Source: Prevotella sp. (GTDB lineage: Bacteria; Bacteroidota; Bacteroidia; Bacteroidales; Bacteroidaceae). Taken from it: DNA of 47,105 nt. Made by a program: the position numbers and the translations under genes. The notes beneath the pieces were generated by a model. It worked only from the letters and a program-made list of their open reading frames with translations, was not told the origin of the DNA and searched no databases. Positions 1-29,086 of the stretch are shown one piece after another (position 1 is the first letter of the stretch; the number at the start of each line of letters is the position of its first letter). Location: the NCBI GenBank assembly GCA_017619755.1, contig JAFZRU010000046.1, positions 1 to 47,105 on the forward strand, read 5' to 3'.

Positions 1-49
1 CATGCGTCCTGAAAGAGTTCCCTTCGATACCGATGGGCGTACGTCTTAG

Positions 50-499
50 GGGCAATGCCGACTGCCTCGGCTTCTGCAGGGGGGGCTTCGCACTCCCCGT
101 CTATCGCGTTGCGGACATGGTAATTTCAACCGTACTAAAAATTTAACGAAGTATTGTTCATACAACGGAATAGATTATGCATTAGGCCTTTCTAATAATG
201 ACATCATTAGATTGATTGAGACATCTGATAAGCGCTTTTCTGTGAATGGCTATAAAGTTGGGGACGAGATAACCAGAACAAGTATCATTCGCGGTTGGGG
301 AATTATTGCGAAGATCGATGATGAATGGTATGCTGCATGGGCGCCAAAGGATATTAACCACCCAGAGGAAGAGGAAACGGGTAAAATCCAATGGTTCTTC
401 AAATTTGATTTCAATGCACCGCTCTATGAAAAAGAAGATGAAAAGAGTAACCTCCAACCTCTCTATGAGAACCTCCAACCTCTCTTTGAAAAAGAATAA
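50..499 (+). CDS. Hypothetical protein, probably broken or partial at its N-terminus
   Basis: I do not recognise this protein. The frame is open from base 50 (after a TAG at 47-49) to 499. The only usable start I see in the convincing part is a TTG at 212, but the AT-rich sequence before it (about 122-211) also reads like protein in the same frame. The true start may therefore be lost at the window edge or broken by a frameshift near 118-120, where base composition changes sharply from GC-rich to AT-rich. The product is acidic, with several aromatic residues in the middle. It ends in two seven-residue repeats (NLQPLYE, NLQPLFE) encoded by a 21-base direct duplication. No signal peptide or known motif is visible. 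A gene remnant is as likely as a functional gene. Confidence 0.4.
   Translation, partial: GQCRLPRLLQGGLRTPRLSRCGHGNFNRTKNLTKYCSYNGIDYALGLSNNDIIRLIETSDKRFSVNGYKVGDEITRTSIIRGWGIIAKIDDEWYAAWAPKDINHPEEEETGKIQWFFKFDFNAPLYEKEDEKSNLQPLYENLQPLFEKE
449..490 (+). repeat. Two 21-bp direct repeats inside the hypothetical gene
   Basis: Two adjacent 21-base units (449-469 and 470-490) share the core AACCTCCAACCTCTC and differ only near their 3' ends. They keep the reading frame and encode NLQPLYE and NLQPLFE. This is a recent in-frame duplication. Confidence 0.85.
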
Positions 500-959
500 G
501 AAAAGAGGTATCTGGATGACGGAGTTTTTGATTCATTTGCCCGTTAGTTCTTTTGTTGAATGAAGAGAAAAACATGCCAAATAGGATGAGAGCGATAATC
601 AAGAGAACTTTCCCACCCTTAAATAGTTTGTATTATTTTGTTTATCAAGAATTTAAGAATTAGAGAATTATAGCCTTACAAAGGTGTAGCAACTCAGCGA
701 ATCGCAAAAGTAGTCGCCTTCGGCGAAAACCAAAGGTCGCGGATGCAAAGCAGACGCAACCACTAATAGCGGATGCAAAGCAGACGCAACCACTAATAGC
801 GGATGCAAAGCAGACGCAACCACTAATAGCGGATGCAAAGCAGACGCAACCACTAATAGACGGATGCCAAATCTTTCAAATCTATCTACCTCCCTACGGT
901 CAATGGGTCTACGACAAATCTCTCAAATTCGTGATAAAGCCTTTCCCTGATTCGTGGCC
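500..959. other. Intergenic stretch without a convincing gene
   Basis: This 460-base interval separates the rightward hypothetical gene from the 3' end of the leftward BspA gene. It holds the 30-bp tandem repeat array at 739-858. The rest is unremarkable, mostly AT-rich sequence. I see no promoter, tRNA or hairpin that I would defend. Short open frames here show no protein-like composition, and the minus-strand frame through the array only reflects the in-phase repeat. Confidence 0.6.
739..858. repeat. Perfect 4 x 30-bp tandem repeat
   Basis: Four identical, contiguous 30-base units run at 739-768, 769-798, 799-828 and 829-858. Each begins GCGGATGCAAAGCAGACGCA and ends ACCACTAATA, and a degenerate start of a fifth unit (ACGGATGC) follows. 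There are no spacers, so this is not CRISPR. Within each unit, GGATGCAAAG and CAGACGCAAC are loosely related. The identity of all four copies suggests recent expansion or contraction by slippage. Confidence 0.95.
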
Positions 960-2558
960 TCACTCTCCCAAAATGACACTGACAATCCCGGTGATGTCGG
1001 CGATGGTGATGCTGCCGTCGAAGTTTATGTCTGCCATCTGCCAAGAGAACTGCCAGTGGTCTTGGCAGATGACGGCATTGACGGTGACTGTGACATCGGA
1101 GATGGAGACTTTGCCGTCGCCGTTGGCGTCTCCCAAAATGCCGCCGACCACTTCTGAGGAAATGGGCTGTATAGTGAAATTCTTCCAATAATCGGCATTT
1201 TGATAGTTGTCGAGTGCAACATACGGCACGTACAATGGCACATTGTAGTTGTTCGCATTGAAGGTGGATGACTTGACGGCTGGCACATTTGGCGCATAAC
1301 ACAGAAATGACTTGAGATTCGGGCATTGGCTGAAGCCATCGTGCTGTATGACTTCAAGAGTTGGTGGCAAGGCGATGGTCTTCAAAGAGGAGCAGAAACG
1401 GAAGGCGTGGTTCCCGATGGCCTTTAGCGAATAGGGCAGCGTGATGCTCTGCAGTGTCCTGCAATAGTAGAATCCGTAGTCGCCGATGGTGGTGACAGAC
1501 TCTGGCACGACATAGTCGCCGAGTTTTCCTGCCGGACAGCAAACGAGCGTGGTCATGTCCTTGTTGAAGAGCACGCCGTCGGCACTGCAATAGACCGTGT
1601 TCTCCTCCGCCACGTCGATGCGCCTCATATCGCTGCATCCGCAGAAGGCCAGGCTGTCCACCAAGGTGAGTGATGCCGGGAGGGTCATGGCCTTGAGTTT
1701 AGTGCAATTGTCAAAGGCGCGGTAGTCTATCCGCTTGAGGTTGGCAGGTGTCGTGACGGTGGTCATACCATAGCAAAGGTTGAAGGCGCGTTCGTGAATT
1801 TCTTCCACGGCGTCCGGGAGAGTTACGGTCTTCAGTAAGTTACAGTGGTAGAAGGCGTTGACACCTATGGAGGTGATGGTTTGCGGTAGAGTCACACTCG
1901 TTATGGCGGAACAGGAATAAAACATGCTGTCACCCACGCATGGCACGCCTTCTGGCAGGACGATGCTTGTCAGTTTCTTACAGCCATAGAAAGAACGTGC
2001 ACCGATTTCGTTTACCGTCTGCGGGATATCTACAGATGTGATGGAGGCGCAGCCTTGGAAGGCGGCCTTGCCTATCGTGGCCACCGTCAAAGGGATGACG
2101 ATGCCTCCTGCTTTCGTCCCCGGACAGGCAAGGAGCGTGGTGACGGCCTTGTCATATAATAGCCCATCGACAATCGTATATGCGGGGTTTTCCGGGGCCA
2201 CGGTGATGGTGTTGAGTTTGCCGCAGGCGGAGAAGGGTGTCTCGCCCAAGTCGGTCACCGTGGCGGGGATGGATACGCTTGTGAGTTTCGGCGACTCCTT
2301 GAAAGTGCCGTCTTCCACCGCCGTGACGGTATATGTCGTTCCGCCGTAGGTCACCGTCTCGGGGATGATGATGTCTCCCTCATAGGTTTTACGTATGACA
2401 AAGGATGCGCCGCTCCCGGAGGCGGATGGTTCTATCACGAGGCAAACAGTATGGTCGGATGTGATGGAGTACCAGATGCCATCCATTTCAAAGGTGGTGG
2501 CCTTGGCGCAGGCAAAGGTGAGAATGGCTATGACGGTCAGTAATGCTCTTGTTTTCAT
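960..2558 (-). CDS. Secreted BspA-type leucine-rich-repeat protein with C-terminal dockerin
   Basis: The product is about 532 residues. The start is placed at the Met of MKTRALL (2556-2558; the preceding Met at 2559-2561 is equally possible) because a hydrophobic signal peptide ending near AKA follows. Upstream codons in the frame would lie across the promoter. The body is a run of LRR_5/BspA repeats of about 22-23 residues with the pattern xxLxxIxLPxxVxxIGxxAFxxC. Two insertions read NPxYxxxDGLLYxK and NTVYxxxDGVLFNK, as is usual in this family. The last 60 residues hold two dockerin calcium loops, DANGDGKVSISD and DINFDGSITIAD. BspA-like proteins are surface adhesins. The dockerin implies attachment to a cohesin-bearing partner, and a cohesin-like protein is encoded about 8 kb away. 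The ligand is unknown. Confidence 0.85.
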   Translation of the reverse strand: MKTRALLTVIAILTFACAKATTFEMDGIWYSITSDHTVCLVIEPSASGSGASFVIRKTYEGDIIIPETVTYGGTTYTVTAVEDGTFKESPKLTSVSIPATVTDLGETPFSACGKLNTITVAPENPAYTIVDGLLYDKAVTTLLACPGTKAGGIVIPLTVATIGKAAFQGCASITSVDIPQTVNEIGARSFYGCKKLTSIVLPEGVPCVGDSMFYSCSAITSVTLPQTITSIGVNAFYHCNLLKTVTLPDAVEEIHERAFNLCYGMTTVTTPANLKRIDYRAFDNCTKLKAMTLPASLTLVDSLAFCGCSDMRRIDVAEENTVYCSADGVLFNKDMTTLVCCPAGKLGDYVVPESVTTIGDYGFYYCRTLQSITLPYSLKAIGNHAFRFCSSLKTIALPPTLEVIQHDGFSQCPNLKSFLCYAPNVPAVKSSTFNANNYNVPLYVPYVALDNYQNADYWKNFTIQPISSEVVGGILGDANGDGKVSISDVTVTVNAVICQDHWQFSWQMADINFDGSITIADITGIVSVILGE

Positions 2559-2615
2559 CATGGTTGTTTTTGAAGATTGTTTCTTTGAATACCTGTCTTT
2601 TAGAGGAATGTGCCG

Positions 2616-2623
2616 CAAAATTA
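2616..2623 (-). promoter_or_regulatory. -7 element for the BspA/dockerin gene
   Basis: On the minus strand this reads TAATTTTG, matching the Bacteroidetes TAnnTTTG -7 element, about 55 bases before the chosen start. I find no good TTTG at the -33 position, so this is a partial match. Confidence 0.45.
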
Positions 2624-2703
2624 CAAAAAAACAGATAAATAGTAAGGATTGGCAGCTCTTTTATTTGGATTTTTTGCAAAATTTTTATAAAAAAGGAAGA
2701 ATA

Positions 2704-2735
2704 TTTGCACATTATTAAAATATTGACTATTTTTG
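2704..2735 (+). promoter_or_regulatory. Bacteroidetes-type promoter for the 2033-residue protein operon
   Basis: TTTG at 2704-2707 is separated by exactly 20 bases from TATTTTTG at 2728-2735. This matches both elements and the spacing of the primary Bacteroidetes sigma factor consensus. It lies about 107 bases before the ATG at 2842, leaving a very AT-rich leader of about 100 nt. Confidence 0.8.
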
Positions 2736-2841
2736 CACGATAATTTGACATTAAAAAACCAATAATTTGACTTAAATATTTAAACAATTAAAAATCAAAT
2801 CATTACATAAAAACAAAAATACTAACTAAAATGATATTATT

Positions 2842-5800
2842 ATGAACAAATGGATTAGATCCTTTATTTTATTGTTGTTTGCACTATCCACTCAGTGGGT
2901 GCAAGCACAAAATGTCGCAAAAGTCGGCTCGACCGAATATGCGACGTTGCAAGAAGCGATAAATGCAGTTCCACAAAATGGAACAACTGCTACCACTGTG
3001 ACGATGCTAAACGACTACACGACGACTCATATCATTCTAGTGGGTGGCCGGAACGTAAAGCTCGACCTTGATGGAAAAACCCTCACACTGACTGCTGGTG
3101 GAAGGTTGAAAATAAACCAAGAAACTTTGGACTATGACACAGCAGGTGGGTTGACTGTTCAGGGCAGTTTCTTTATTCTCGGCGGTTCGACTTTGATGGT
3201 GACTGGCAACGGCACAATCACTACCAGCAGCAGTACCAATCCTACCATCCTCAACGTCGGCACACTGGTTATCGAGAACGGCACCATTACCCGCACGGAT
3301 GGCTCAGCAAGCGTGATTGTAAACAACTACAATGGGCAGGTAACCATAAACGGAGGAACGGTTGTCAACAATTCCACCGCTAACACCGTCGGGCATACCA
3401 TCACCAACAATGCAGGAACGGCATCCAATGGCGTGATGTCACATCCGAATTCAAAACTGACCGTTAATGACGGTAACGTTTCGGCAACAGCAAACAAGAA
3501 AAATGCCATCGATAATTTTGCCATTGTTGAAGTCAACGGAGGCACGATAACGGGTGGACCTGTTACTGATGGAACTATTCCTTGTGCAGCCATCAACACG
3601 CACGCTGCCGCTGCCACCGTCACCATTAACGGCGGCAACGTCTTTGCTGGCAACGACTCGGAATATTCGAAATGTTTCACTGAAAGTACTGGCATAGTTA
3701 CAATTAATCCCACTTCGACCTTCAACAGAGACATTTCGTTGTTCAATGACAACGGACATGTCACCATTAATGGCGAAGTCATAAACAATAATAATGGCAA
3801 ATGGACTGTTGGAAAAGTTGTTGCTGTCGCCAAGATCGGCGAAACAAAATACCGCACGTTGCAAGCAGCCGTTGATGCTGCCCAGCAAATGGGTGGTGAA
3901 GTGACCATCAATATCATTGACGACATCAGTGGCGAGACCGTCACCATTCCAGAAGTAGCCAACTTCAAACTCACCATAGACGGCCAGAAGGATGCAAGTT
4001 CCAACTACACCGTTGATGCCCTCATCATTGTCGACGGTTTGCGAGGCAATGGAGGCAGCATCACTAATGGCGCTTCTGTCACTCTTCAGAACATCGCCTT
4101 TGTAAACGGAGAAGCGAGAGATGCCATTAACCCTGCACACTATCCGCATGACTTGACAATTCAGGATTGTACTTACACGGGTTCGGATGCAAGCCTTAAA
4201 AATTGGTTCTTGAATGTTACAGATGGTCCTTTGTATGGAGCAACCGTCAAAAACGTTACGGTTGAGCATTCACGTCTGATACAAGGTGATTTTTCTTCGG
4301 AGGTTGTGTTTGAAAACATCGTTGCTACCAACGACGCATATTGTGGTTTCAACATTAAGACAAACGACTCGGGCGGAAAGATTGGTACAGTCCTTATTAA
4401 GGATTGTCAGGTCACGACGGCCAAGTATGCGCTCCGTGATTATATAGATGGTTATAATGGCACCATCACCCTTGAAGGTAACACCTTTATTAGTACCCCG
4501 ACTGAAAGTGACGAAGGTGTCATCGTCAACAGAGGCGGTGCTGTAGGAACTGCCCACATCAATGTTGTCAGTGGCATCTACACCGGCCCTGTCAAGGTTT
4601 TGAACAACAAGGAAGGTGTGCTCGCCATCTCTGGCGGATATTTCTCGGAGGAGTTCCCGCAAGAGTACATTGCCGCAGACCTTGTCGCACAAGGTAAGGT
4701 TTGTGCTCCTGCCACGGATATGCAAGGCTACTTCACCGTTGGCGACCCCCACTATGTGGCACAAATCGGTGAGACCAAGTACGTGTCACTCGCAGCAGCC
4801 GTGAATGCTGTTCCCGCCGACGGTACCGAGACCACCATCGTGATGATTGACGATGAGACCATCAACTCTAATGCAGGAGTGACAATACCTGCAAGCAAGA
4901 ATGTCGTTCTCGACCTGAATGGCAAGACTGTCACCGGTGTTGTCCAAAGCGCCGCTAGTGCGCAGACCATTTTGAACAAGGGCACGCTTGTTGTCACAGA
5001 CAGCAGTGACGAGAAGAACGGAACCGTCACCAATGTGGTCAGCGATGAGAATGCAGGGTCTCCCGGCGATAGCAAGAACTGGTTCAGTAATGCAATTACG
5101 AACAATGGAACCCTGACCGTCAACGCCGGCAACATTGTGAACACTGGCACGGGCGGAGCATGCTACGCCATAGACAATATCACCAACGGCACGTTGTGCA
5201 CTCCGGTGTTGAATATCGCAGGAGGCAATGTCAGCGCGAAGAAAGTTGCTGTGCGCATGTTCTGCAACAGCACCACGAACGATAACACCGTCAATGTTAC
5301 CGGTGGCGTCATCAGTAGTGAGAATGCTTATGCCATCCAACCCCAGCAGGCCAATAATAACGCCAACAAGGCTGTATTGAACATCTCTGGCGGCACCTTC
5401 AGCGGCCAATACGCATTCTGTGATTATGGCAACAATAATGTTGCTTCCCAGTTTGACAATGCTTCTTATAGCATAACCGGTGGCTTCTTCTCCGGCTACA
5501 TGTGGAGTTATGCAACCTCTTACTGTGGCATGGAGGGCTTCGTCTCCGGTGGCTATTTCGACAAAGTTGTCGGTGGTGATATCGTCGCTCCCGGCTCGGC
5601 TTGTGTTGACAACACGGAAGAGGAGACGATGGAAGCCTATCCTTACACCATCGGCATAGCTGACGTCCACTACTATTGGCTGAACAACAGCGGTCAGATA
5701 GACGGTGGTGGCTACTACACCATCTATGCACCCTTCGCCGGTCCTGATCCAGTCTTGATGGACGGAGAATTCATTGAATTGCAGAAAGACGTGACGCTCA

Positions 5801-8800
5801 CCAAGGACATCGAGTATCTTGAGGAATGCAGCTTTGGCGACCCGATTTTCAAGGGTGGTACATTCACGTTGAAATTCGGTGAATACGACATCGACCTGAA
5901 CGGCCATGTCTTCCCGATTCCTACAGGTGTCACCATCTTGACCGACAAGCAGACCGACATCTTCTCCGCTCTCGAGGAGGGCTACAAGGTGGTGGAAGAG
6001 GCTACGGAGACCGGCTATGCATATTCTGTCGTTCCGAAGACCTATGTGGCTCAGATTGGCGATGTCCTATATGAGACCCTCGCCGAAGCCGTGGCCGCCG
6101 TTCCTACCGACGGCACAGAGACCACCATCCTGATGATTGACAACGAGGCTGTCGTTGCAGGTATAACAATTGATGCAACCAAGAACATCGTCCTTGAGCT
6201 GAATGGCAAGACTATTTCCGGTAATACAGATTCCTCGAAAACCTATGCCTTGATTACGAACAAGGGTACTTTGACCATCCAAGACAACACTGACACTGCA
6301 GGAGATGGCACTGGAACAGGTCTGATTACAACTTACATTGCTAACCCCGACGGTGGTGACGTTCCTGGTTATGCCAGCAATACCATCACAAACAATGGCA
6401 ATCTGACCGTGAAAAGCGGAAAGATCGTAAACAACGGTTCTGGTTATGCATGCTATGCCATTGACAATCAAACCAACGGCAACAGCTACACGCCTACATT
6501 AAAGATTGAGGGTGGCCGTATGCAACAGATGAATGCTTACACTTACGCTGTCCGTATGTTCTGTAACAGCACGACCAATGTGAATAGCGTGGAAATTAGT
6601 GGTGGTGTTATCGAGGGCGGCTATGGACTTTGGCTCCAGACCCCCAATAACAAATCCAATAAGGCAAATCTGGTCATCACTGGTGGTACCCTTAATGCCA
6701 ACGATGGTGCAGCATTGTATATTGGTGGAACCAAAGCCGACAATTCCAACATCTCCTTCGACATATCTGGAACTGCTACTTATATCAACGGAACAGGTGT
6801 GATTATCCAAGGACCTCTTAGCGGCACATACGGACACTCTTCCATCTCTAATGGCAACTTCGTCAACGTGCAATGTGGTGCAAATGTAGAAAAATTCATC
6901 ACAGGCGGTATTTATGATGAAGTCGTCAATGACATCTACATTGCAGAAGGCTATATGTGCATACCTTACGGTGCAGACAAATACACCGTTATTCCCATCC
7001 CCGCTTCCTCACTCATCGTCTTCCACGACTCTGGCAACTATGAGCAGTCCTTCGAGGTGCCTATGTTCACCAGGATGGCTGGAGCCGACATTTATTATAA
7101 GGTGAACGGTGGTGCTGCCCAGAAGTACTCTGGTTCTCTCTCCATCAGCGAGGATACCGAGTTGGAGGCTTGGCTGCAAGTTGGCGATACAAAGGTGGGT
7201 GAGTCCATCACTCGTAGTTACGCCATCGTGGAGAAGCCTGCCGGCCCGTCCGTGGCAGACAACTACTACTATATCAAGAACAATGGCAACGGCAAGTATG
7301 TGAACGTGGCAGGTCGCAAGACCGTCACCTTCAAGACCAAGGCTGAGGCTGAGGAGGCCGCTGGTACCGTCATCAGAGTCAATGCCGTTGAGGGCGGAGC
7401 AGTTAAGACGCTGCGCTCACAGGCCATCGACCTGCCTGGCTACGCCAAGCGCGCTATGAACTACGTGCCCGAGATGGTGCAGCTGGTGGTCAGCAAGCTC
7501 CACGCCGACGGCGGTGGCAACATCCTCGGCGAGAACGGAGTGGACGCCATCATGACGAAGTTCAACGAGTCGTTCGACTACAACCTCTATCTTGAGGAGT
7601 ACAACGGTGGCTACCGCATCTACGGCCGTACGCCGAGTATGAAGCCCGTGGTTGATTTCTACGCCGAGAACAAGGACAGGGTTGATGCCAAGTTGCCGGA
7701 ACTGGAAACCTTCATCAACAACGCCATCGACAAGTTGAAGACCAAGTTGAAAGGCCGTGGCGAAAGCATCCTCAAGCCATTCAGCGTGGTAGCCGTATGG
7801 GAAGCCATGGGCGGCACACTGACCAAGCCCGAGGACGCCGAATCGACAGCACGCTTCTATGAGGAGGTGCTCGCCAGCGAGGCCAATGTATGGGAGTTTG
7901 CTTATCAGACAGCCATGATGTACTACGAGCCGCTGATGGCCAGCGAGACCTTCCAGGGTGCGGTTGCCCGACTGGGTGACTACTCGAAGTACCTCGACAA
8001 GCTGCCCAATGTGCGCCCGAACTTCAAGTACTACATCGTTGCCGACGGCAGCAAGATGGACTTCATCAGCGAGGGCAACCCCAATATTGATACAGGCTAT
8101 GCCACCTGGACACTGGAAGACCGCACCAACTTCACCGTGAAGTTCGACGAGGCCGACAAGTTGGTCGATGGTCTGGGTACCAAGTACTACACCACCCTCT
8201 ACACCGACTTCGCTTACACTATGCCGGAGAATGCCAAGGCATACGCCGTGACAAGCTATAACGCCAAAGACATTGCAGACCTGGAGGAGATCACAGGTGT
8301 GATTCCCGCACAGACCCCGGTGCTCCTAATGACTCAAGACGAAGGTTTGGAAGCCACGTTGACTCTCTCCACAGAGGCTGGCACCGCACCCACCACCAAC
8401 CTGCTGAAAGGCAACGACTGGGTGGTGAAAGAATACGACTTGCAGACAGAACAGTTGCATGACATGTTCGAACTGGTCAAGGAAAAGTTGGGTGAAGACT
8501 TCTATAACAACTACTTGGCAGAATACGAACATCTGTTGGCTCTTAACGCAGGCACCGTCAACAACAAGTACTTCTTCGGACTGAAAGCCGAGGTAGCAGA
8601 GGGGGTGTCCAATCTCCGTCAGCTTGGTGTGGATGAAAGTGAAAGCGGTGAAATGAAACTTGGCTTCTGGGAGAACTACAATGCCCTGCCTGCCAACAAG
8701 GCATTCTTGATTGAGGAGCCGAGTCCCGTGCTCATCCCACTCTGGCCTGACGTTAACTGCGATGGTGTCATCAACACTTCAGATGTCATTGCTGTTATGG

Positions 8801-8943
8801 ACATCTATATGGACGGCGATTGGGAAGGTCCGAATTGGATTTACCCGACCTACAATCATAGTGTGGCCGATGTTAATCAGGACGGCATCATTAATGTCAG
8901 TGACGCAGTAATGTTGTTGGATATTTATTTTGAATTGTATTAA
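2842..8943 (+). CDS. Giant secreted repeat protein (2033 aa) with beta-helix modules, chitobiase-C-like domain and dockerin
   Basis: A signal peptide (MNKWIRSFILLLFALSTQWVQA) is followed by four related modules starting near residues 27, 327, 639 and 1069. Each opens with AxIGxxxYxTLxxAVxAVP, then a VxMIDD-type segment and asparagine/glycine-rich strands (NGGTI, NNGxLTV) typical of right-handed parallel beta-helices. Modules 3 and 4 are the most alike. Near residues 1395-1465 a segment with YYKVNGG and SISEDTELEAW resembles the chitobiase C-terminal (CHB_HEX_C/Fn3-associated) domain. A helical and mixed region follows (about 1470-1960) that shares its closing LLKGNDW-type motif with the next gene. 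The C-terminus is a dockerin with loops DVNCDGVINTSD and DVNQDGIINVSD. It is probably a cell-surface adhesin or glycan-binding protein. No catalytic residues are recognised. Confidence 0.85.
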   Translation: MNKWIRSFILLLFALSTQWVQAQNVAKVGSTEYATLQEAINAVPQNGTTATTVTMLNDYTTTHIILVGGRNVKLDLDGKTLTLTAGGRLKINQETLDYDTAGGLTVQGSFFILGGSTLMVTGNGTITTSSSTNPTILNVGTLVIENGTITRTDGSASVIVNNYNGQVTINGGTVVNNSTANTVGHTITNNAGTASNGVMSHPNSKLTVNDGNVSATANKKNAIDNFAIVEVNGGTITGGPVTDGTIPCAAINTHAAAATVTINGGNVFAGNDSEYSKCFTESTGIVTINPTSTFNRDISLFNDNGHVTINGEVINNNNGKWTVGKVVAVAKIGETKYRTLQAAVDAAQQMGGEVTINIIDDISGETVTIPEVANFKLTIDGQKDASSNYTVDALIIVDGLRGNGGSITNGASVTLQNIAFVNGEARDAINPAHYPHDLTIQDCTYTGSDASLKNWFLNVTDGPLYGATVKNVTVEHSRLIQGDFSSEVVFENIVATNDAYCGFNIKTNDSGGKIGTVLIKDCQVTTAKYALRDYIDGYNGTITLEGNTFISTPTESDEGVIVNRGGAVGTAHINVVSGIYTGPVKVLNNKEGVLAISGGYFSEEFPQEYIAADLVAQGKVCAPATDMQGYFTVGDPHYVAQIGETKYVSLAAAVNAVPADGTETTIVMIDDETINSNAGVTIPASKNVVLDLNGKTVTGVVQSAASAQTILNKGTLVVTDSSDEKNGTVTNVVSDENAGSPGDSKNWFSNAITNNGTLTVNAGNIVNTGTGGACYAIDNITNGTLCTPVLNIAGGNVSAKKVAVRMFCNSTTNDNTVNVTGGVISSENAYAIQPQQANNNANKAVLNISGGTFSGQYAFCDYGNNNVASQFDNASYSITGGFFSGYMWSYATSYCGMEGFVSGGYFDKVVGGDIVAPGSACVDNTEEETMEAYPYTIGIADVHYYWLNNSGQIDGGGYYTIYAPFAGPDPVLMDGEFIELQKDVTLTKDIEYLEECSFGDPIFKGGTFTLKFGEYDIDLNGHVFPIPTGVTILTDKQTDIFSALEEGYKVVEEATETGYAYSVVPKTYVAQIGDVLYETLAEAVAAVPTDGTETTILMIDNEAVVAGITIDATKNIVLELNGKTISGNTDSSKTYALITNKGTLTIQDNTDTAGDGTGTGLITTYIANPDGGDVPGYASNTITNNGNLTVKSGKIVNNGSGYACYAIDNQTNGNSYTPTLKIEGGRMQQMNAYTYAVRMFCNSTTNVNSVEISGGVIEGGYGLWLQTPNNKSNKANLVITGGTLNANDGAALYIGGTKADNSNISFDISGTATYINGTGVIIQGPLSGTYGHSSISNGNFVNVQCGANVEKFITGGIYDEVVNDIYIAEGYMCIPYGADKYTVIPIPASSLIVFHDSGNYEQSFEVPMFTRMAGADIYYKVNGGAAQKYSGSLSISEDTELEAWLQVGDTKVGESITRSYAIVEKPAGPSVADNYYYIKNNGNGKYVNVAGRKTVTFKTKAEAEEAAGTVIRVNAVEGGAVKTLRSQAIDLPGYAKRAMNYVPEMVQLVVSKLHADGGGNILGENGVDAIMTKFNESFDYNLYLEEYNGGYRIYGRTPSMKPVVDFYAENKDRVDAKLPELETFINNAIDKLKTKLKGRGESILKPFSVVAVWEAMGGTLTKPEDAESTARFYEEVLASEANVWEFAYQTAMMYYEPLMASETFQGAVARLGDYSKYLDKLPNVRPNFKYYIVADGSKMDFISEGNPNIDTGYATWTLEDRTNFTVKFDEADKLVDGLGTKYYTTLYTDFAYTMPENAKAYAVTSYNAKDIADLEEITGVIPAQTPVLLMTQDEGLEATLTLSTEAGTAPTTNLLKGNDWVVKEYDLQTEQLHDMFELVKEKLGEDFYNNYLAEYEHLLALNAGTVNNKYFFGLKAEVAEGVSNLRQLGVDESESGEMKLGFWENYNALPANKAFLIEEPSPVLIPLWPDVNCDGVINTSDVIAVMDIYMDGDWEGPNWIYPTYNHSVADVNQDGIINVSDAVMLLDIYFELY

Positions 8944-8962
8944 GTGATCATTTTTCTCAAAA

Positions 8963-10216
8963 ATGAAACGATTTGTAATCATCATGCTTGTTGCTATGAG
9001 CTGGCTGCCAATGGCAGCCCAGCTCAATGGCAACGGCTACTATCGCATTCGCAATGTGGCGAACCCTACGCGCTATATCACCATTGCGAATGACACCTTG
9101 AATTATACCACGGCGATTTCCACAGCGGCAGGAGGACTGATGGAACTCAACGGAGGTTCCTTGTTGTTTGGCGATGCCGCCGTGGCCGCCGCCGCGAAAG
9201 CCAGAGGTTTGGAGTGCGCCACCAAATTCCTGATGACGGACATTAAATTGAAAGAGGACCCGAACTGCGTGGACGTGGCCAGTATCATCTACCTGAAGAA
9301 TAGCTCTGGAGCGAAATATGACTTGATCGGCCAATCCACCAGCTTGATAGAAATCACCACTGGAACCTATCCGGGTTCTGTTGTGTTGCAATTCAAAGAC
9401 ATATACGCTTCAATAACCAAAAGCAGTGGTTCTGGTGCAAATAGCAAGTACACGGCAAAAGTCGATTTGAAGGCCTCCAATTATTCTGCAGCCAATCTGG
9501 GTTCACGGTATTTCATCGACGACAATGGCACCTTCACCATCAGTGAAAGCTACTCTGGTGATAATGCCAAATGGTATCTGACAAAAATCACCAGTTTCAA
9601 TGTCGATGCCTCACTGGAGTACAAAGGGAAATATTATTGCACGATGTTCACCCCCTTTGCTTACACGCTGAGTGGGCAAACGTGGAAAGCATGGGTGGTC
9701 ACCGGCATCAATGCTGATGGAACACTCGAAAAGCAATGCATCGCGGCAAATGCAAACGTTGATGACGAAGATGCCGGTGTCGCCGGTGTCGCCGTACCTG
9801 CCGCGACCCCCGTCATCCTGGAGTGCAAATCCAATGTACCTTCTGAATGTCAAGTCAATCCGGAAGGGGAGCCGAAGGTCGCTCACCATAACGAACCACT
9901 GACTTCCAATTATACTGGTGTCAACCTGCTGAAAGGCACCTGTTTCTGCAATACGGATGGCAGAATAACCTTTACTACCAAGAGTGGAACCAGTTATTTC
10001 AATGCTGACAACTACACCAAATATGTAGCAGCAAACATGCTGGTGCTCGGCATTGCCGAGTCACCCACGGGGGTAAGCCGTCTCGGATTCTTCCCCTACA
10101 CTGGCGACAAGATGAAGAGCAACAAGGTGTGGCTGGACATCTCCGGCAGCAGTGCCAATGCGAATTTTACTTTCGACACCGATGTACCTAATCAGAAAGG
10201 AGTGACAAATGAATAA
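8963..10216 (+). CDS. Secreted protein of unknown function, related to the C-terminal region of its upstream neighbour
   Basis: The product is 417 residues, starting 19 bases after the giant gene, with a signal peptide ending MAAQ. The mature protein opens with NGYYRIRNVAN, like the YYYIKNNGNGKY motif near residue 1475 of the upstream protein. Later it has YYCTMFTPFAYTL, then PAATPVILE and LLKGT. These correspond in order to YTTLYTDFAYTM, PAQTPVLLM and LLKGN in the upstream protein, so the two share a domain architecture. No dockerin, lipobox or enzyme motif is seen. Its stop overlaps the next start by 8 bases, indicating translational coupling. Function is unknown; co-secretion with the operon's other surface proteins is inferred. 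Confidence 0.75.
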   Translation: MKRFVIIMLVAMSWLPMAAQLNGNGYYRIRNVANPTRYITIANDTLNYTTAISTAAGGLMELNGGSLLFGDAAVAAAAKARGLECATKFLMTDIKLKEDPNCVDVASIIYLKNSSGAKYDLIGQSTSLIEITTGTYPGSVVLQFKDIYASITKSSGSGANSKYTAKVDLKASNYSAANLGSRYFIDDNGTFTISESYSGDNAKWYLTKITSFNVDASLEYKGKYYCTMFTPFAYTLSGQTWKAWVVTGINADGTLEKQCIAANANVDDEDAGVAGVAVPAATPVILECKSNVPSECQVNPEGEPKVAHHNEPLTSNYTGVNLLKGTCFCNTDGRITFTTKSGTSYFNADNYTKYVAANMLVLGIAESPTGVSRLGFFPYTGDKMKSNKVWLDISGSSANANFTFDTDVPNQKGVTNE

Positions 10217-10664
10217 ATTTACCTACAGTTTGCTGTCCCTGCTGCTCTTCCTCCCTTTGGGCATCTCGGCACAGGAGGACATCACCATTATCGTAAACGA
10301 TGAGAGCCAAATCGTGACAGGCACGGTGATAACCATCTCCGACACCGAGGAGTATATCGACACCGAAACCAATCTCTACCAGGTGACTGGCAAGAACACT
10401 TTCATGTTAGGTGACATCAATGAAAATGGTCATGTGGATGTATCTGATGTTGTCAGTATAGTGGATATTTATTTTGATGATGAGAACTCCAAGGTAGCTG
10501 ATATGAATGAAAATGGTTATGTTTCCACAGATGATGCTATTATTGGTGTAGACACTGTGTTTGGTGAGGTAGAAGAAAAAGTAATTGTGGAGAGCTATGA
10601 GGTGGAGGATATTACCAACTTGTGGATCTGTAGCAAAACAACCCCAGCGGTTGACCAACATTAG
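10209..10664 (+). CDS. Small secreted dockerin protein
   Basis: The product is 151 residues. A signal peptide (MNKFTYSLLSLLLFLPLGISA-Q) is followed by about 55 residues of beta-type sequence. Two dockerin-like calcium loops come next, DINENGHVDVSD and DMNENGYVSTDD, linked by VDIYFDD. An acidic tail of about 40 residues closes the protein. The start overlaps the previous gene by 8 bases. The protein is little more than a dockerin on a short stalk, so it could act as an adaptor or cap in a cohesin-dockerin assembly; this is inference. The first half is GC-richer than the second, and the AT-rich part continues into the next gene. The stretch at 10462-10477 is identical to one in the dockerin of the giant gene. 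Confidence 0.75.
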   Translation: MNKFTYSLLSLLLFLPLGISAQEDITIIVNDESQIVTGTVITISDTEEYIDTETNLYQVTGKNTFMLGDINENGHVDVSDVVSIVDIYFDDENSKVADMNENGYVSTDDAIIGVDTVFGEVEEKVIVESYEVEDITNLWICSKTTPAVDQH

Positions 10665-10711
10665 TTTAGTGAATTCTTTTGAATTATTATAAATATAAAA
10701 TAACAATAAAC

Positions 10712-11974
10712 ATGAAAAGATTATTATTTTTCTTATTTGCTTTCTTTGCAATTGGAAGTAGCGTCCTGGCAGAAGAAATACTGCAGGATGTAATTAGTGT
10801 GGATGATGTGGAAATCACTCCGGGAGGAGAAGTTGAAGTTACAGTAAAATTGGTCAATCCACCTACTGATGGATTGAGATCTGTTTCATTCGACCTCTAT
10901 TTGCCAGATGGATTTACAATCAAGAAGAAGAATGCCAATAAACAAAATGTAATTGTAAACCTTTCTGATGATCAAGACGAAGCTTTTCAGGCTACAGGAA
11001 AGACCGTCAAAGAAAATGGAGTTGAAAACCTACAACGTATTAGGTTTGCTATTCTTTCAGTTACGGACAATGAAGCTTTGTTGGAAGTAGGAGATTTGTT
11101 CTCTTTTTATCTTGTGGCTGACGAGGATATTAATATTGACAACTATCAAGCAATTCTAGGCGGACAATTTGCCGTTACGGGTAATATCACATTGACAGGT
11201 CATGTGGGTTCAATTACCTATTATCAACCTCCTTACACCTTCAACATCAAGATGCCAATCGAGTTGAGCGAGGAGAAGAGCTATGCAGAGGGCTTTGGCA
11301 ACTATACCGACGTGAAGGTGATTATGAACAAGCGCACGTTGAAGGCCGACACCTGGAACACCATCTGCTTCCCGTTCGATATGGACGCGGATGCCATCAA
11401 GAAAGCCTTTGGTGAGGACAACACTGTCACCATCGCCACCTTGATGGGTAGTGAGACCAAAAAGAAAAACGGCAAGGTCCATTCCATCGTCATCAAGTTC
11501 GACACCAAATCTACAACGGAGATTTCTGCCAACACACCATACTTGATCAAGTTGAGTGAGGCTGTTGATGTATTTGCCGTGGATGGCGTGAGCCTAAGCG
11601 ACAACCAGAGCCCTGTCTCCGTGACAGGTGGCGACTGCACCTTCTATGGCAACTATGACGTCATCGAGAACCTCGGTGCAGATACACCTGTGTTGTTCAT
11701 CTCAGGCAACAATTTCTACTATGCCACCGGCAACACGACAATGAAGTCATTCCGTGGCTACTTCACACACCCCGACCTCGCCGAGTATATCCAAAATAAA
11801 ACGGCTGGTGCAAACATCACCCTCTTCGTGGACGACGAGCCTACGGGCATCAGAAACATTGTTACTAATCAAGGCGGCGAGGATGTGTATGACATCTCTG
11901 GCCGCAAAGTGAATAACGACAACTTGCAGAAGGGCGTTTATATCGTCAACGGCAAAAAGCAGACAGTTCATTAA
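10712..11974 (+). CDS. Secreted protein with cohesin-like N-terminal domain and sorting-type C-terminal tail
   Basis: The product is 420 residues, with the start placed at MKRLLFF (10712) to give a clean signal peptide ending VLA. Residues 22-170 look like a cohesin or cohesin-like beta-sandwich: VDDVEITPGGEVEVTVKL, then SVSFDLYLPDGF, and later RFAILS and GDLFSFYLVA. Residues 215-385 contain TWNTICFPFDM and ISANTPYLIKL, a module seen in many Prevotella secreted proteins. The end, VYDISGRKV...GVYIVNGKK, resembles type IX secretion or cell-surface sorting tails. Cohesins bind dockerins, and three dockerin genes surround this one. The cohesin assignment rests on pattern alone. Base composition changes abruptly near 11,220, between the cohesin-like half and the rest. 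Confidence 0.6.
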   Translation: MKRLLFFLFAFFAIGSSVLAEEILQDVISVDDVEITPGGEVEVTVKLVNPPTDGLRSVSFDLYLPDGFTIKKKNANKQNVIVNLSDDQDEAFQATGKTVKENGVENLQRIRFAILSVTDNEALLEVGDLFSFYLVADEDINIDNYQAILGGQFAVTGNITLTGHVGSITYYQPPYTFNIKMPIELSEEKSYAEGFGNYTDVKVIMNKRTLKADTWNTICFPFDMDADAIKKAFGEDNTVTIATLMGSETKKKNGKVHSIVIKFDTKSTTEISANTPYLIKLSEAVDVFAVDGVSLSDNQSPVSVTGGDCTFYGNYDVIENLGADTPVLFISGNNFYYATGNTTMKSFRGYFTHPDLAEYIQNKTAGANITLFVDDEPTGIRNIVTNQGGEDVYDISGRKVNNDNLQKGVYIVNGKKQTVH

Positions 11975-12001
11975 AAAGTATCACTCAATAAATTAGGAAC
12001 A

Positions 12002-12187
12002 ATGAAAAAGACATATATCAAGCCTGAAACAGGAATCGATACACTCACCCTCGAGGCACCTTTCTTGGGCATTAGTGGGCAAGACGAGAATGGTAACACC
12101 ATCATTGGCGGTGGTGAAAATGGTGATAACGTAGATCCTGATGTTAACAGGCATTCACTATGGGATGAGGTAGAAGAGGATTATTAA
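12002..12187 (+). CDS. MKKTY-type small peptide (61 aa)
   Basis: A 61-residue acidic peptide starts 27 bases after the cohesin-like gene. It begins MKKTYIKPETG, has a short hydrophobic patch (EAPFLGISGQ), then a glycine/asparagine-rich middle, and ends SLWDEVEEDY. I recall short Prevotella/Bacteroides proteins with the same plan: MKKTYxxP start, hydrophobic patch, Gly/Asp-rich middle, and a WD(D/E)xxxx acidic end. No function is established to my knowledge. There is no signal peptide in the usual sense. It is the last gene before the operon hairpin. It could be a precursor peptide, a chaperone-like partner, or a stray conserved small protein. Confidence 0.7.
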   Translation: MKKTYIKPETGIDTLTLEAPFLGISGQDENGNTIIGGGENGDNVDPDVNRHSLWDEVEEDY

Positions 12188-12206
12188 CCATCCTATATGA
12201 CATGAA

Positions 12207-12242
12207 AATGGCAGCCGCACTTGCAAAAGTACGGCTGCCATT
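12207..12242 (+). terminator. Hairpin ending the secreted-protein operon
   Basis: AATGGCAGCCG (12207-12217) and CGGCTGCCATT (12232-12242) form a perfect 11-bp stem with a 14-base loop, 20 bases after the small peptide gene. The tail (GCTTTGC) has only a short T tract, so termination is likely but not certain. Confidence 0.65.
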
Positions 12243-12365
12243 GCTTTGCAGGGGTGAGTCAAAATCACCCACGTCAAAAATGCGCCGTTTTCTACAAATC
12301 TTATTAAACCAAACCAACCGGGCTTCATCTAATCGGAAACAATGTTTTTCAATTAAACCATTTAA

Positions 12366-13247
<882 letters not shown>

Positions 13248-13273
13248 TCGTCCACAATCAGTGGGTATCACGA

Positions 13274-13303
13274 AGGGGGTGTGGCTATTTTGACACACCC
13301 CCT
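13274..13303. terminator. Hairpin after the esterase gene
   Basis: AGGGGGTGTG (13274-13283) and CACACCCCCT (13294-13303) form a 10-bp stem with a 10-base loop. CACGA/TCGTG extends the stem across a small bulge. It is 27 bases past the esterase stop and is followed by TTGTTTC. The convergent gene ends at 13502, so it could serve either strand. Confidence 0.7.
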
Positions 13304-13316
13304 TGTTTCGTGGACA

Positions 13317-13390
13317 GACTTTATGTCGTAGCGCCAATAGGCCGTGTGTCAAACATTCGCCCTGACGGGCGAGCGGATGGACATAAAGTC
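13317..13390. repeat. Nested palindrome, possible dispersed intergenic repeat
   Basis: GACTTTATGTC (13317-13327) is the exact reverse complement of GACATAAAGTC (13380-13390). Between them lies a perfect inner hairpin, TCGCCC-TGAC-GGGCGA (13357-13372). The element sits in the convergent gap after the esterase terminator. Its two-level symmetry resembles REP- or MITE-like intergenic elements. Only one copy is seen in this window. Confidence 0.6.
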
Positions 13391-13501
13391 CACCCCTACA
13401 GCAACCCTGTCCTCTTGGCGTTTTTAGGGAATCGCTTTCGGAAAGATGGGGATAATCAAAATTTTTATGGTGGCTGGGCTTTTTGGCAAATGAATAGTTC
13501 C

Positions 13502-14527
13502 TCATTCGAACATTTCCCACCGCCGTCTTGTCCATTCGATGGTGTCGTATTCGATGGTTTTGGCCAAGCCGGCCATGTTGATTTCCACCACCTTTTGCAT
13601 GAGTTTGGGCCAGCCATTGAAGAAATAGCAATACTGTGCGAGGTTGTTGGCGGTCATTCCCTCTTCATTGGCGGTGAGAGCCTCATTCATATATTTGCTC
13701 ACGCTGTCGGTCAGTTCATTGTTGAAGAGCAAGTCCATGGTGGGGCTGATGAGATGTTTCACGTCATCGGCCGATAATTGGGTGTCGGTGCGGGAATAAA
13801 TGACATAATCACCTTCGCAGTCGTATTCATCCTCCGCTGCGGGGTAGAAAGATTCAACCCTTGTGTGCGTGTGGTAGCCCTGCTCTGACAGGTCGTCACT
13901 CTCCACAGGAGCCATGGTCACCTCCTTGCCATGGAAACCGAAGAGCATTTCAAGTTCGTCATATTGTTCTTTGATGCCATCCTCCGTGGAGCATCCCAGG
14001 AGTACCAAACTCTCCATTTGCTTTCGCGGCATGATGCTGTCCAATTGTGGCATGGATGCGTAAAGTTCGTCGAAGACCTTCACATAACTTTTCTTCAGCA
14101 CGTCACGTATCTCACGCCAGTTCTCTATGTGCTGCACCTCTCCATATTCATCGGTGGTGAAACGGCAGTGCAGGTCTTTGATCTCTTTCCACAGCAGAGA
14201 GGCCATGCGTGTTTGGTAGTCATTGGTGTTTTCATCCACTTCGCATGACACGGGGATGATTTCCATGTTGTAACCATTGCTGGTGGAGTCTGTTACTGTG
14301 ATGATGAACTTCTCGGTGATTTCGTACTGTTGTGTTGTGTCGTTGCCGGCGATTTTCATTTTCCCCTGTATCCGTTGATACTCCATGGTGTCGTTTTTGC
14401 AGAAATAGGCGATGACGGCAATTGTGGAATCCTCTTTCTCATCATTCTGCAAGGTCATGCTTTGTGCATGAGCAGTCAATGCCATGATGGTGAGGACGAT
14501 AGTTGTCAGAATTTTTTTCATTTTCAT
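13502..14527 (-). CDS. Secreted protein of unknown function
   Basis: The product is about 341 residues from the Met at 14525-14527 (MKMKKIL; an alternative start is 14521). This choice gives a signal peptide ending AHA and leaves the -7 element at 14561-14568 upstream. The mature protein is acidic, with two TTDEYGEV/DEYDCEGDYV-like segments, and appears globular without repeats. A central stretch, CSTEDGIKEQYDELEMLFGFHG, contains one of its few cysteines. I do not recognise the family. It may be periplasmic or outer-membrane associated. The neighbouring genes are unrelated and suggest no job for it. Confidence 0.7.
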   Translation of the reverse strand: MKMKKILTTIVLTIMALTAHAQSMTLQNDEKEDSTIAVIAYFCKNDTMEYQRIQGKMKIAGNDTTQQYEITEKFIITVTDSTSNGYNMEIIPVSCEVDENTNDYQTRMASLLWKEIKDLHCRFTTDEYGEVQHIENWREIRDVLKKSYVKVFDELYASMPQLDSIMPRKQMESLVLLGCSTEDGIKEQYDELEMLFGFHGKEVTMAPVESDDLSEQGYHTHTRVESFYPAAEDEYDCEGDYVIYSRTDTQLSADDVKHLISPTMDLLFNNELTDSVSKYMNEALTANEEGMTANNLAQYCYFFNGWPKLMQKVVEINMAGLAKTIEYDTIEWTRRRWEMFE

Positions 14528-14560
14528 AAACAGAAGTTGATGTGTTGAACAAACAGGGTG

Positions 14561-14568
14561 CAAAGGTA
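14561..14568 (-). promoter_or_regulatory. -7 element for the secreted unknown protein
   Basis: On the minus strand this reads TACCTTTG, an exact TAnnTTTG, 34 bases before the chosen start at 14527. No convincing TTTG lies 19-21 bases further upstream. Confidence 0.5.
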
Positions 14569-14639
14569 ATCATTTCCCTAAGAATAAGTGGTATTTACAC
14601 ACCTTTTTTTCAACACGAAAGGCCACGTCGCCCTTATGT

Positions 14640-15956
14640 TCATTCGCCCGTGAACCTCCCCACGAAGAGGATGACGCCCGAGGAGGCTTCGTAGATGAGG
14701 TAGATGAAGGGTCTGTTGGCATGGAAGGTGGCCTTGGGAGGTGCCATGGGAGCGTCGGCTTTAGTAGTGGTGTATGTCCCGGCTATGGTGACGGCAGCGG
14801 CTTCGGCGCCCTCCTCGTTCACCTTGATTTTGGCCTTTTGGCGCATCATGGCGATATGGATGGGCCATTCACACATGTTGGAAATCTCGGTGCAGTCGGG
14901 ATTGAAAACTTGGTGGATGCCCAATTTTTGCAGCAGACCGATGAGGCCACCTTGCAAGTTGTCGGTGTCGGAGGAAGTCTCGTGGCGTGGCAGTTTCAAG
15001 TCCACCTCGTATGTGGAGTATTCTTTCATCGTGCCACTGAAGCCGTCAGAATGGTTGTATTGCGCACTTGTCAGGCGATGGATGATGTCGTCGGTGCTCT
15101 TGCCTTCCTCCGGCAGCATCACCACCATGTTCCAGTAACCATTTCCATAGGGCATCATGATGGAGGAATAGGTTTCATTCTTCGCATAACTGATGAGCAC
15201 GTCCTGGTGCATCAGCGGCAGTTGGGTCGTGCCGTTCTTGGTGGTGAAATTCTCCGTGCGTGTGTCCTTGGGGTCGAATTTGGAAATCCAGTCGGCCTTG
15301 AAATAGATGGCATTGAGAAGGTATGACACCATGTCGGGGTCGATGTTGTCGAGGATGGAGGGAATCATCCCGTTGGTCTTGTTGTCGCACCAGTTGTTGA
15401 TGTGGTTGAGCGTTTTAGGAGAGGAGAAATCGAGCGCCTCGGCCTCGGCGTCGTAATACTCCTTCATGTCCTCCTGGAACTGCTTTTTCAGTTGGTATTT
15501 CTTGTTGAGGAAGATGGCGTTGGCAATGTTCAGCGTCACTTTTTCATCCACTTTGGGCAGGTTGTCAATCAGGTTCTTGCAGTAGTTGTTCACCGCTTGT
15601 ATGCCCCCCTCGTGGAAGCCCAATGTCTGCTCCAATTCCTGTTCGGTCTGACCCGTTGCGGCGTCGTTCACCATCCCCAATACGTAGGTGATGCTCAGCG
15701 GTGAGTAGATGAAACTCTTGCTACCTTGGTCGGTCTCGTTCACCGTTTTCAGGAACTTGAGTGCGAAGGTGTTGTTGTCGTTGACAAACACCTTCTGCTC
15801 CCTGGTCAATTGCAGTGGCTTGGCTTTAGGCACCATGTCCACCACCTTCACCGTTTTTTGGTTTACATACAGTTCCTCCGAATTGTCCGAGGAGCATGAT
15901 GTCGGCAAACAGCAGGCCGCCAAGGCCGCCATCCCTATGAAAAGACTTTTTTTCAT
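14640..15956 (-). CDS. Serpin family lipoprotein (serine/cysteine protease inhibitor)
   Basis: The product is 438 residues, close to normal serpin length plus a lipoprotein leader. MKKSLFIGMAALAACCLPTSC-SSDN gives a signal with candidate lipidated Cys at position 21 (less likely 15). Serpin features include NxFALKFLKTV near the start, SIMMPYGNGYWNMVVMLP in the middle and the reactive-loop hinge EEGAEAAAVT. The C-terminal motif ANRPFIYLIYEASSGVILFVGRF is also characteristic. The small residues in the hinge suggest an inhibitory serpin. The loop after it (AGTYTTTKADAP) sets specificity but I cannot assign P1. As a surface lipoprotein it would protect the cell or its secreted enzymes from host or self proteases. 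It is divergent from the ECF sigma gene. Confidence 0.93.
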   Translation of the reverse strand: MKKSLFIGMAALAACCLPTSCSSDNSEELYVNQKTVKVVDMVPKAKPLQLTREQKVFVNDNNTFALKFLKTVNETDQGSKSFIYSPLSITYVLGMVNDAATGQTEQELEQTLGFHEGGIQAVNNYCKNLIDNLPKVDEKVTLNIANAIFLNKKYQLKKQFQEDMKEYYDAEAEALDFSSPKTLNHINNWCDNKTNGMIPSILDNIDPDMVSYLLNAIYFKADWISKFDPKDTRTENFTTKNGTTQLPLMHQDVLISYAKNETYSSIMMPYGNGYWNMVVMLPEEGKSTDDIIHRLTSAQYNHSDGFSGTMKEYSTYEVDLKLPRHETSSDTDNLQGGLIGLLQKLGIHQVFNPDCTEISNMCEWPIHIAMMRQKAKIKVNEEGAEAAAVTIAGTYTTTKADAPMAPPKATFHANRPFIYLIYEASSGVILFVGRFTGE

Positions 15957-16103
15957 CTTTGCAGTTTTTTTCTATTCGTCTATTATAAAAATGCGGGAAA
16001 TGAGGGATTCTTGCATGGCGGAGTGTTAAATAAACAAAAAATGTGATGGCGGCATACAAGATTTGCCCCATTCTGTAATTAATAAGTAGGAATACACGAA
16101 AAA

Positions 16104-28993: not shown

Positions 28994-29028
28994 ATAAATT
29001 CCCAATTTTATTTTTCCTTGCCGTCAAG

Positions 29029-29060
29029 TTTGGTCATTTCCCATATTTTTGCTAACTTTG
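29029..29060 (+). promoter_or_regulatory. Promoter of the C10 protease gene
   Basis: TTTG (29029-29032), 20 bases, then TAACTTTG (29053-29060), 27 bases before the ATG at 29087. It is divergent from the mdh promoter; the two -33 elements are 35 bases apart. Confidence 0.8.
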
Positions 29061-29086
29061 CCTTCTCCATCCTAAAACGCAATGCC

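Follow-up and report, generated by a model that had tools for sequence, protein, structure and literature searches.

We analysed a stretch of 47,105 nucleotides from Prevotella sp. (contig JAFZRU010000046.1 of assembly GCA_017619755.1; hereafter the window), which is contig C59 of a 3.7-Mb genome (G000). The subject is a five-gene operon near one end of the window that encodes two dockerin proteins and a protein, hereafter protein 4, with a predicted cohesin domain. The features of the operon are as follows.

2704–2735, plus strand: promoter of the Bacteroidota type, TTTG-N20-TATTTTTG, exact pattern
2842–8943, plus strand: giant secreted protein of 2033 amino acids (aa), repeat-rich (by eye), with a C-terminal dockerin
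8749–8916, plus strand: dockerin of the giant protein (residues 1970–2025; PF00404), first patch diverged from the related locus L005
8963–10216, plus strand: secreted protein of 417 aa without a dockerin, mostly conserved between the diverged patches
10209–10664, plus strand: mini-dockerin protein of 151 aa (PF00404, E 0.017), with orthologues in the related loci L005, L006 and L007
10389–11233, plus strand: diverged block spanning the mini dockerin and, in protein 4, the cohesin domain, 60% nucleotide identity to L005
10712–11974, plus strand: protein 4, single-cohesin protein of 420 aa and proposed surface anchor, the anchoring being our inference
10772–11236, plus strand: predicted cohesin domain, residues 21–175 of protein 4 (PF00963, E 0.024)
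12002–12187, plus strand: 61-aa peptide of the MKKxYxxP family, without a signal peptide (by eye)
12207–12242, plus strand: hairpin 3′ of the operon, −25.1 kcal/mol, z −3.9

The five-gene operon is real. Its genes all lie on the plus strand with spacings of 19, −8, 47 and 27 bases, exactly as an earlier, sequence-only reading of the window had stated, and the promoter and hairpin named in that reading were also recovered. The promoter matches the pattern TTTG-N20-TAnnTTTG, the Bacteroidota consensus, which has 6 exact sites in the window against 0.26 expected. None of 200 shuffled sequences folded as well as the hairpin, which is absent from the listing of the terminator scan. The descriptions of the first two products as a giant dockerin protein and a related secreted protein proved fair. 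By eye, the four large products start with signal-peptide-like stretches and the 61-aa peptide does not. Protein 4 consists of a signal peptide, the cohesin domain, a WNTICFPF domain and a C-terminal tail, and a Pfam scan found no carbohydrate-binding module in it.

The identity of the N-terminal domain of protein 4 was addressed with profiles and structure models. Full-length protein 4 had no cohesin match in Pfam; the domain alone gave E 0.024 against PF00963 and the protein gave E 0.08 in the genome search, both under the cut-off. We report three profiles of our own, built from protein 4 (A1), from its cohesin domain with three orthologues (A3) and from eleven such domains (A4). A3 matched seven other places in the same genome (eight in total), five with E no higher than 1e-5; among the seven is a domain on contig C53 that is itself over the PF00963 cut-off. 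PF00963 matched 5 of the 11 A4 members at E ≤ 1 (best 3.6e-6), and the best match of A4 in the PDB was the cohesin 5n5p (E 0.0043). In a Foldseek search of the PDB with an AlphaFold model of residues 21–175, the region named for structure prediction in the sequence-only reading, ranks 1–12 were cohesin-bearing chains (probability 0.98–1.00), including 3kcp and 4fl4, but the predicted local distance difference test score (pLDDT) of the model was 47.8. This model served the Foldseek ranking only, and a model of full-length protein 4 (pLDDT 39.5) was set aside and not used. We take the N-terminal domain to be a divergent cohesin, for which both fold and homology are likely.

The dockerins of the operon carry two calcium-loop repeats and match the type I profile, the giant protein more strongly than the mini protein. 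The dockerin of the giant protein scored just below the 22.9-bit cut-off of PF00404 in the scan of window proteins (E 1.7e-4, 22.1 bits) but passed it when the genome was searched (23.3 bits); the mini dockerin stayed under the cut-off in both (E 0.017 and 0.037). Aspartate or asparagine occupies positions 1, 3, 5 and 12 in all four loops of these dockerins.

To place the operon in a wider context, we scanned other genomes with A1, scoring at most four candidates per genome. Within the genus, 117 of 387 genomes gave matches at E 1e-20, some covering the C-terminal half only. In a phylum sample, 3 of 394 other genomes gave matches at 1e-15, all of them partial. Full-length matches in the phylum sample came only from this genome, and the architecture therefore looks genus-limited. 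Viral contigs scanned with A1 gave no relative. For comparison of gene neighbourhoods, 104 places with frames of at most 500 aa were chosen among the matches listed, of which 99 were fetched and joined by the gene on contig C64; one locus (L193) was left out for lack of a cohesin-protein frame under the filter, leaving 99, and L005, L006, L007 and the window brought the number to 103. Some genomes contribute several loci, L005 being the same locus as G063:C8 and L006 the same as G201:C45. Two of the 103 loci have no room upstream and two have none downstream.

The protein 4-like frame contains a cohesin match at E 0.01 in 98 of the 103 loci. The gene immediately upstream on the same strand carries a dockerin in 78 of 101 loci (74 at 1e-5) with a median gap of 26 bp, compared with 35 of 542 other frames of at least 100 aa in the same loci, a rough background from a simple frame caller that may include spurious frames, so that Fisher's test against it does not yield a strict probability. 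Downstream, a peptide fitting MKKxYxxP lies 3′ of the cohesin gene in 88 of the 101 loci with room; these peptides often combine a YGGVDxxGxxDP-like core with a W-acidic tail. The window operon is one copy of a recurrent cassette, in a genome with about 60 other dockerin proteins. Among the 73 of 78 upstream proteins covered by a Pfam scan, the 25 commonest of 36 families include BspA-type leucine-rich repeats (15 proteins), Flg_new_2 (14), Big_2 (8) and CotH (4), and the enzymes are two C10 peptidases and one alpha-amylase. Where recognised, the upstream proteins carry mainly repeat and immunoglobulin-like surface-type domains and few enzymes. The mini protein has few orthologues, which occur in 3 of 398 genomes, the present one among them; its profile matched 10 of 199 relatives at 1e-8, mostly through dockerins, and reached better than 1e-20 only in G063, the source of L005, besides this genome.

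We compared distances among the cohesin domain (N), the neighbouring dockerin (D), the C-terminal half of the cohesin protein (T) and the peptide (P) in 74 of the 78 pairs, four with short dockerins having been dropped. The N–D Mantel correlation was 0.680, and 0.655 after control for T; N and T, which belong to one polypeptide, gave 0.266. The P values for cohesin and dockerin equal the permutation floor. N–D co-variation persisted in distant pairs, at 0.409 for cohesin distances above 0.5 and 0.322 above 0.65. With P included (63 loci), the partial correlations were 0.624 for D–N, 0.248 for T–P, 0.144 for D–T and 0.094 for N–T. Divergence of the peptide tracks the C-terminal half of the protein 4-like product more than it does the cohesin domain (partial 0.026). 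In the 27 loci whose dockerin protein, like those of the window, lacks a cohesin-like domain, r was 0.737, and 0.769 without L005, L006 and L007.

The signal is localised within the dockerin. It is borne by repeat positions 10, 11, 13, 14, 15, 17, 18, 20 and 21, with positions 13 and 21 contributing more in the first repeat. Variable columns at positions 10–21 averaged 0.276 (22 columns), compared with 0.115 elsewhere (21 columns, maximum 0.249), this range having been chosen after inspection of the profile. The set 10, 11, 17, 18 and 22, the clostridial recognition positions reported by Pages et al. 1997, was not chosen in this way, and it too was associated with the signal (Mann-Whitney p 0.0007; 0.004 among variable columns). 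The coupled positions take in most of this set; position 22, for which only the first repeat was measured, showed no signal (0.07). The profiles of the two repeats are alike (r 0.85) and are not independent support, because the dockerin halves are themselves alike (0.64 versus 0.28). If the two proteins made no contact, such localisation would be difficult to account for.

A second line of evidence comes from L005, L006 and L007, which derive from assemblies assigned to Prevotella or Prevotellaceae; two of these come from water buffalo, rumen or omasum. Gene order is the same as in the window as far as the contigs reach: L005 spans the end of the giant gene to the peptide, L006 covers that stretch and reaches further into the giant gene, and L007 holds the mini, cohesin and peptide genes. 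The C-terminal part of the giant protein is kept in L005 and L006. DNA identity between the window and L005, measured in windows of 20 codons or 40 columns, is 82–100% outside three patches, save for one dip to 62%. The first patch is the dockerin of the giant protein from residue 1980 (48–67%, with 85–97% in the windows upstream), the second the mini protein from residue 61 (42–75%) and the third the cohesin domain (44–65%). The 417-aa protein gene between the first two patches remains at 82–97% in 10 of its 11 40-column windows, the other being the 62% dip. From the mini dockerin through the cohesin domain the identity is 60%, and 92% in the adjoining flanks; the pattern is reversed between L005 and L007, where the block is 89% identical and the flanks 74%. 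In tree tests on the four sequences, the flanks prefer one tree (P value of the approximately unbiased test, p-AU, 0.976 versus 0.025 and 0.0006) and the block another (0.972 versus 0.024 and 0.043); sub-blocks taken singly were not decisive. The window block is also low in guanine and cytosine (GC; 0.364 versus 0.477). Module exchange would be the simplest account of the diverged block. One short exchanged piece does not explain the joint change of the giant protein's dockerin, since this lies past the mostly conserved 1254-bp gene. At nine recognition-face positions, giant and mini dockerins agree at 0.56 within a genome (n = 12) and 0.28 between genomes (n = 24), a comparison of three genomes at positions picked from the 74-pair analysis, which included these mini dockerins; at loop positions the agreement is 0.25 within and 0.34 between.

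Taken together, we consider it probable (roughly 0.78) that the operon encodes a private cohesin–dockerin coupling, with protein 4 as the socket for the giant and mini proteins. The cohesin domain of protein 4 would engage both dockerins of its own operon, probably in a calcium-dependent manner by analogy with type I pairs. Protein 4 is probably an exported protein that its C-terminal part keeps at the cell surface, where it would display the giant protein; the latter, with its many repeats, is most likely an adhesin. The type IX translocon gene SprA is present in the genome. Across loci, the co-varying neighbours suggest individual secreted proteins attached by their own matched couplings and not a cellulosome. 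The sequence-only reading had proposed cohesin–dockerin pairing within the operon and outside a cellulosome; this was partly borne out, by the profiles, the Foldseek ranking and above all the co-variation across 74 loci.

Several observations weigh against this interpretation. PF00963 stayed below its cut-off for protein 4 throughout, the best Foldseek E was 1.5e-3 and none reached 0.001, and both AlphaFold models were poor (pLDDT 39.5 for the full-length model, built on four rows, and 47.8 for the domain). Among the loci, 5 of 103 protein 4-like frames have no cohesin match at E 0.01, and 23 of 101 have no upstream dockerin match, although 5 of these 23 show dockerin-like C-termini by eye. 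Some first dockerin loops in relatives have T, V or I at position 3, and some of the additional dockerins encoded in the same operons belong to a different type. The genome has two other single-cohesin genes, and neither adjoins a dockerin gene. Mantel tests only partly remove shared ancestry; r fell to 0.431 (versus 0.109) in the 49 loci left after removal of similar cohesins, and T–D given N was small at 0.139 (p 0.001). Finally, the tail of protein 4 did not match TIGR04183, the sorting profile of the type IX secretion system, which leaves its export route and anchoring putative; that profile matched 2 of 28 members of the set A7 weakly (best E 0.0055).

Protein 4 might instead be a general socket for many dockerins of the genome, a stripped-down version of the cellulosome as proposed for Ruminococcus albus. 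The numbers lean this way, with 62 dockerin matches over the cut-off in G000 and fewer cohesin-like domains (the eight A3 places, and a cohesin-like match to a broader profile in 12 of 63 dockerin proteins). However, the recognition residues of the operon dockerins, with a DIY[FM] motif, differ by eye from those of the other dockerins of the genome, and across loci the cohesins follow the dockerins of their neighbours. Such a role might fall instead to the orphan cohesin genes on contigs C64 and C43 or to the lone cohesin on C28; we regard it as unlikely for protein 4.

Linkage alone, with DNA neighbours travelling together and their products making no contact, is improbable. Dockerin and cohesin do lie within a few hundred bases of each other, and the block from the mini dockerin to the cohesin differs as one piece. 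Nevertheless, the two abutting halves of the cohesin gene correlate at 0.27 (partial 0.09), compared with 0.66 (0.62) for dockerin and cohesin; the dockerin of the giant protein has diverged as well, beyond the 417-aa protein gene; and the signal is confined mainly to one part of the dockerin repeats.

We also attach little probability to an intrachain role for the dockerin, serving as a calcium clamp or packing against a neighbouring cohesin-like domain, with protein 4 a paralogue in another role. Such a domain is found 7–38 residues before the dockerin in 45 of the 78 upstream proteins, and in 43 of these tandems both cohesins co-vary independently with the dockerin (0.510 for the anchor, 0.437 for the in-chain domain). 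Yet the co-variation with the neighbouring cohesin remains after this in-chain control, and the giant and mini proteins have no in-chain domain at E 0.01. An intramolecular clamp, the alternative raised in the sequence-only reading, does not explain co-variation with a cohesin on another polypeptide in the 27 loci where no in-chain domain was found (0.74). The tandem data fit either a row of subunits joined head to tail on a base protein or packing inside one polypeptide. More tentatively, the cassettes may represent many private, mutually exclusive couplings swapped as matched plug and socket, with the tandems building a surface fibre on the single-cohesin base and the MKKxYxxP peptide acting as a helper of that base; we find this picture doubtful. 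A cellulosome was rejected because there is no cohesin array, one cohesin being present in protein 4 and none found in the giant or mini protein, as the sequence-only reading had also noted, and dockerin-bearing plant-wall enzymes are absent from the operon, with a few elsewhere in the genome.

The statement in that reading that no enzyme carries a dockerin holds for the operon and fails for the genome. Among the 25 of 47 families shown for the 63 dockerin proteins of G000, a C10 peptidase domain occurs in seven and a Spi inhibitor domain in seven, with two serpins, two rhamnogalacturonan lyases and one each of GH10, GH5 and GH43. The BspA gene adjoining the operon on the opposite strand does carry a dockerin over the cut-off (Dockerin_1, E 2.8e-6), as had been noted. 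Its likeness to the mini dockerin ranks 42 of 74, no closer than average, and because of this and its strand it is probably not a partner; its candidacy for protein 4 is unsupported. For 22 extra dockerins within 2.5 kb of the immediate one, likeness to the latter ranked first of 74 in 6 and in the top five in 11, and a rule of one dockerin type per operon would be only half true.

Elsewhere in the genome, single-cohesin genes each followed by an MKKxYxxP peptide lie at L249 (C64) and L251 (C43), and might serve as general sockets; L252:5565–6065 (C28) encodes a 166-aa protein with a signal-peptide-like start and little beyond one cohesin-like domain. In the window, GC is 0.44–0.52 across positions 1–16000, operon included, and 0.55–0.63 from 18 kb to 47105. 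A serpin-like gene near the operon (14640–15956, minus strand) has a lipoprotein-like start, and 29018–32560 encodes a C10 peptidase-like protein with a GKKIVIK-type tail; by eye neither has a dockerin.

These results name, gene by gene, a candidate dockerin partner for clusters of rumen Bacteroidetes and provide 74 natural pairs. In PMC7480376, the role of dockerins in such clusters is ‘not defined yet’. If the proposed coupling is correct, cohesin and dockerin in this genus would display individual secreted proteins, often repeat-rich, and not only serve a plant-wall machine. The counting of dockerins in Bacteroidetes bins as a cellulosome sign, as in PMC6071333, would in that case be misleading, and the pairs would supply orthogonal protein couplers. 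No such cassette was described in the titles and abstract openings among the literature matches listed.

Noncellulosomal cohesin and dockerin modules were reportedly treated by Peer et al. in 2009, and the present system would share with them an existence outside cellulosomes; a 2017 study by Bensoussan is said to have tested cohesin–dockerin binding from a rumen metagenome and could overlap with this work. With type I clostridial pairs the cassettes share a likely cohesin homology, a duplicated calcium-loop dockerin and signal at the recognition positions 10, 11, 17 and 18. They also share two similar dockerin halves, a symmetry described together with dual binding in PMC12484212. In contrast to clostridial cellulosomes, protein 4 has one cohesin, without a scaffoldin array or a carbohydrate-binding module, few partners have recognised enzyme domains in the families shown, and each operon has a separate co-varying pair. 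The rumen Bacteroidetes dockerins of PMC7480376 are alike in organism and module, with no cognate cohesin assigned in the excerpt consulted. A similar arrangement is that of R. albus, for which PMC6118326 proposes that one anchoring cohesin retains dockerin proteins at the surface; there, one socket serves many proteins, whereas here each operon of a Bacteroidota host would have one socket of matched specificity.

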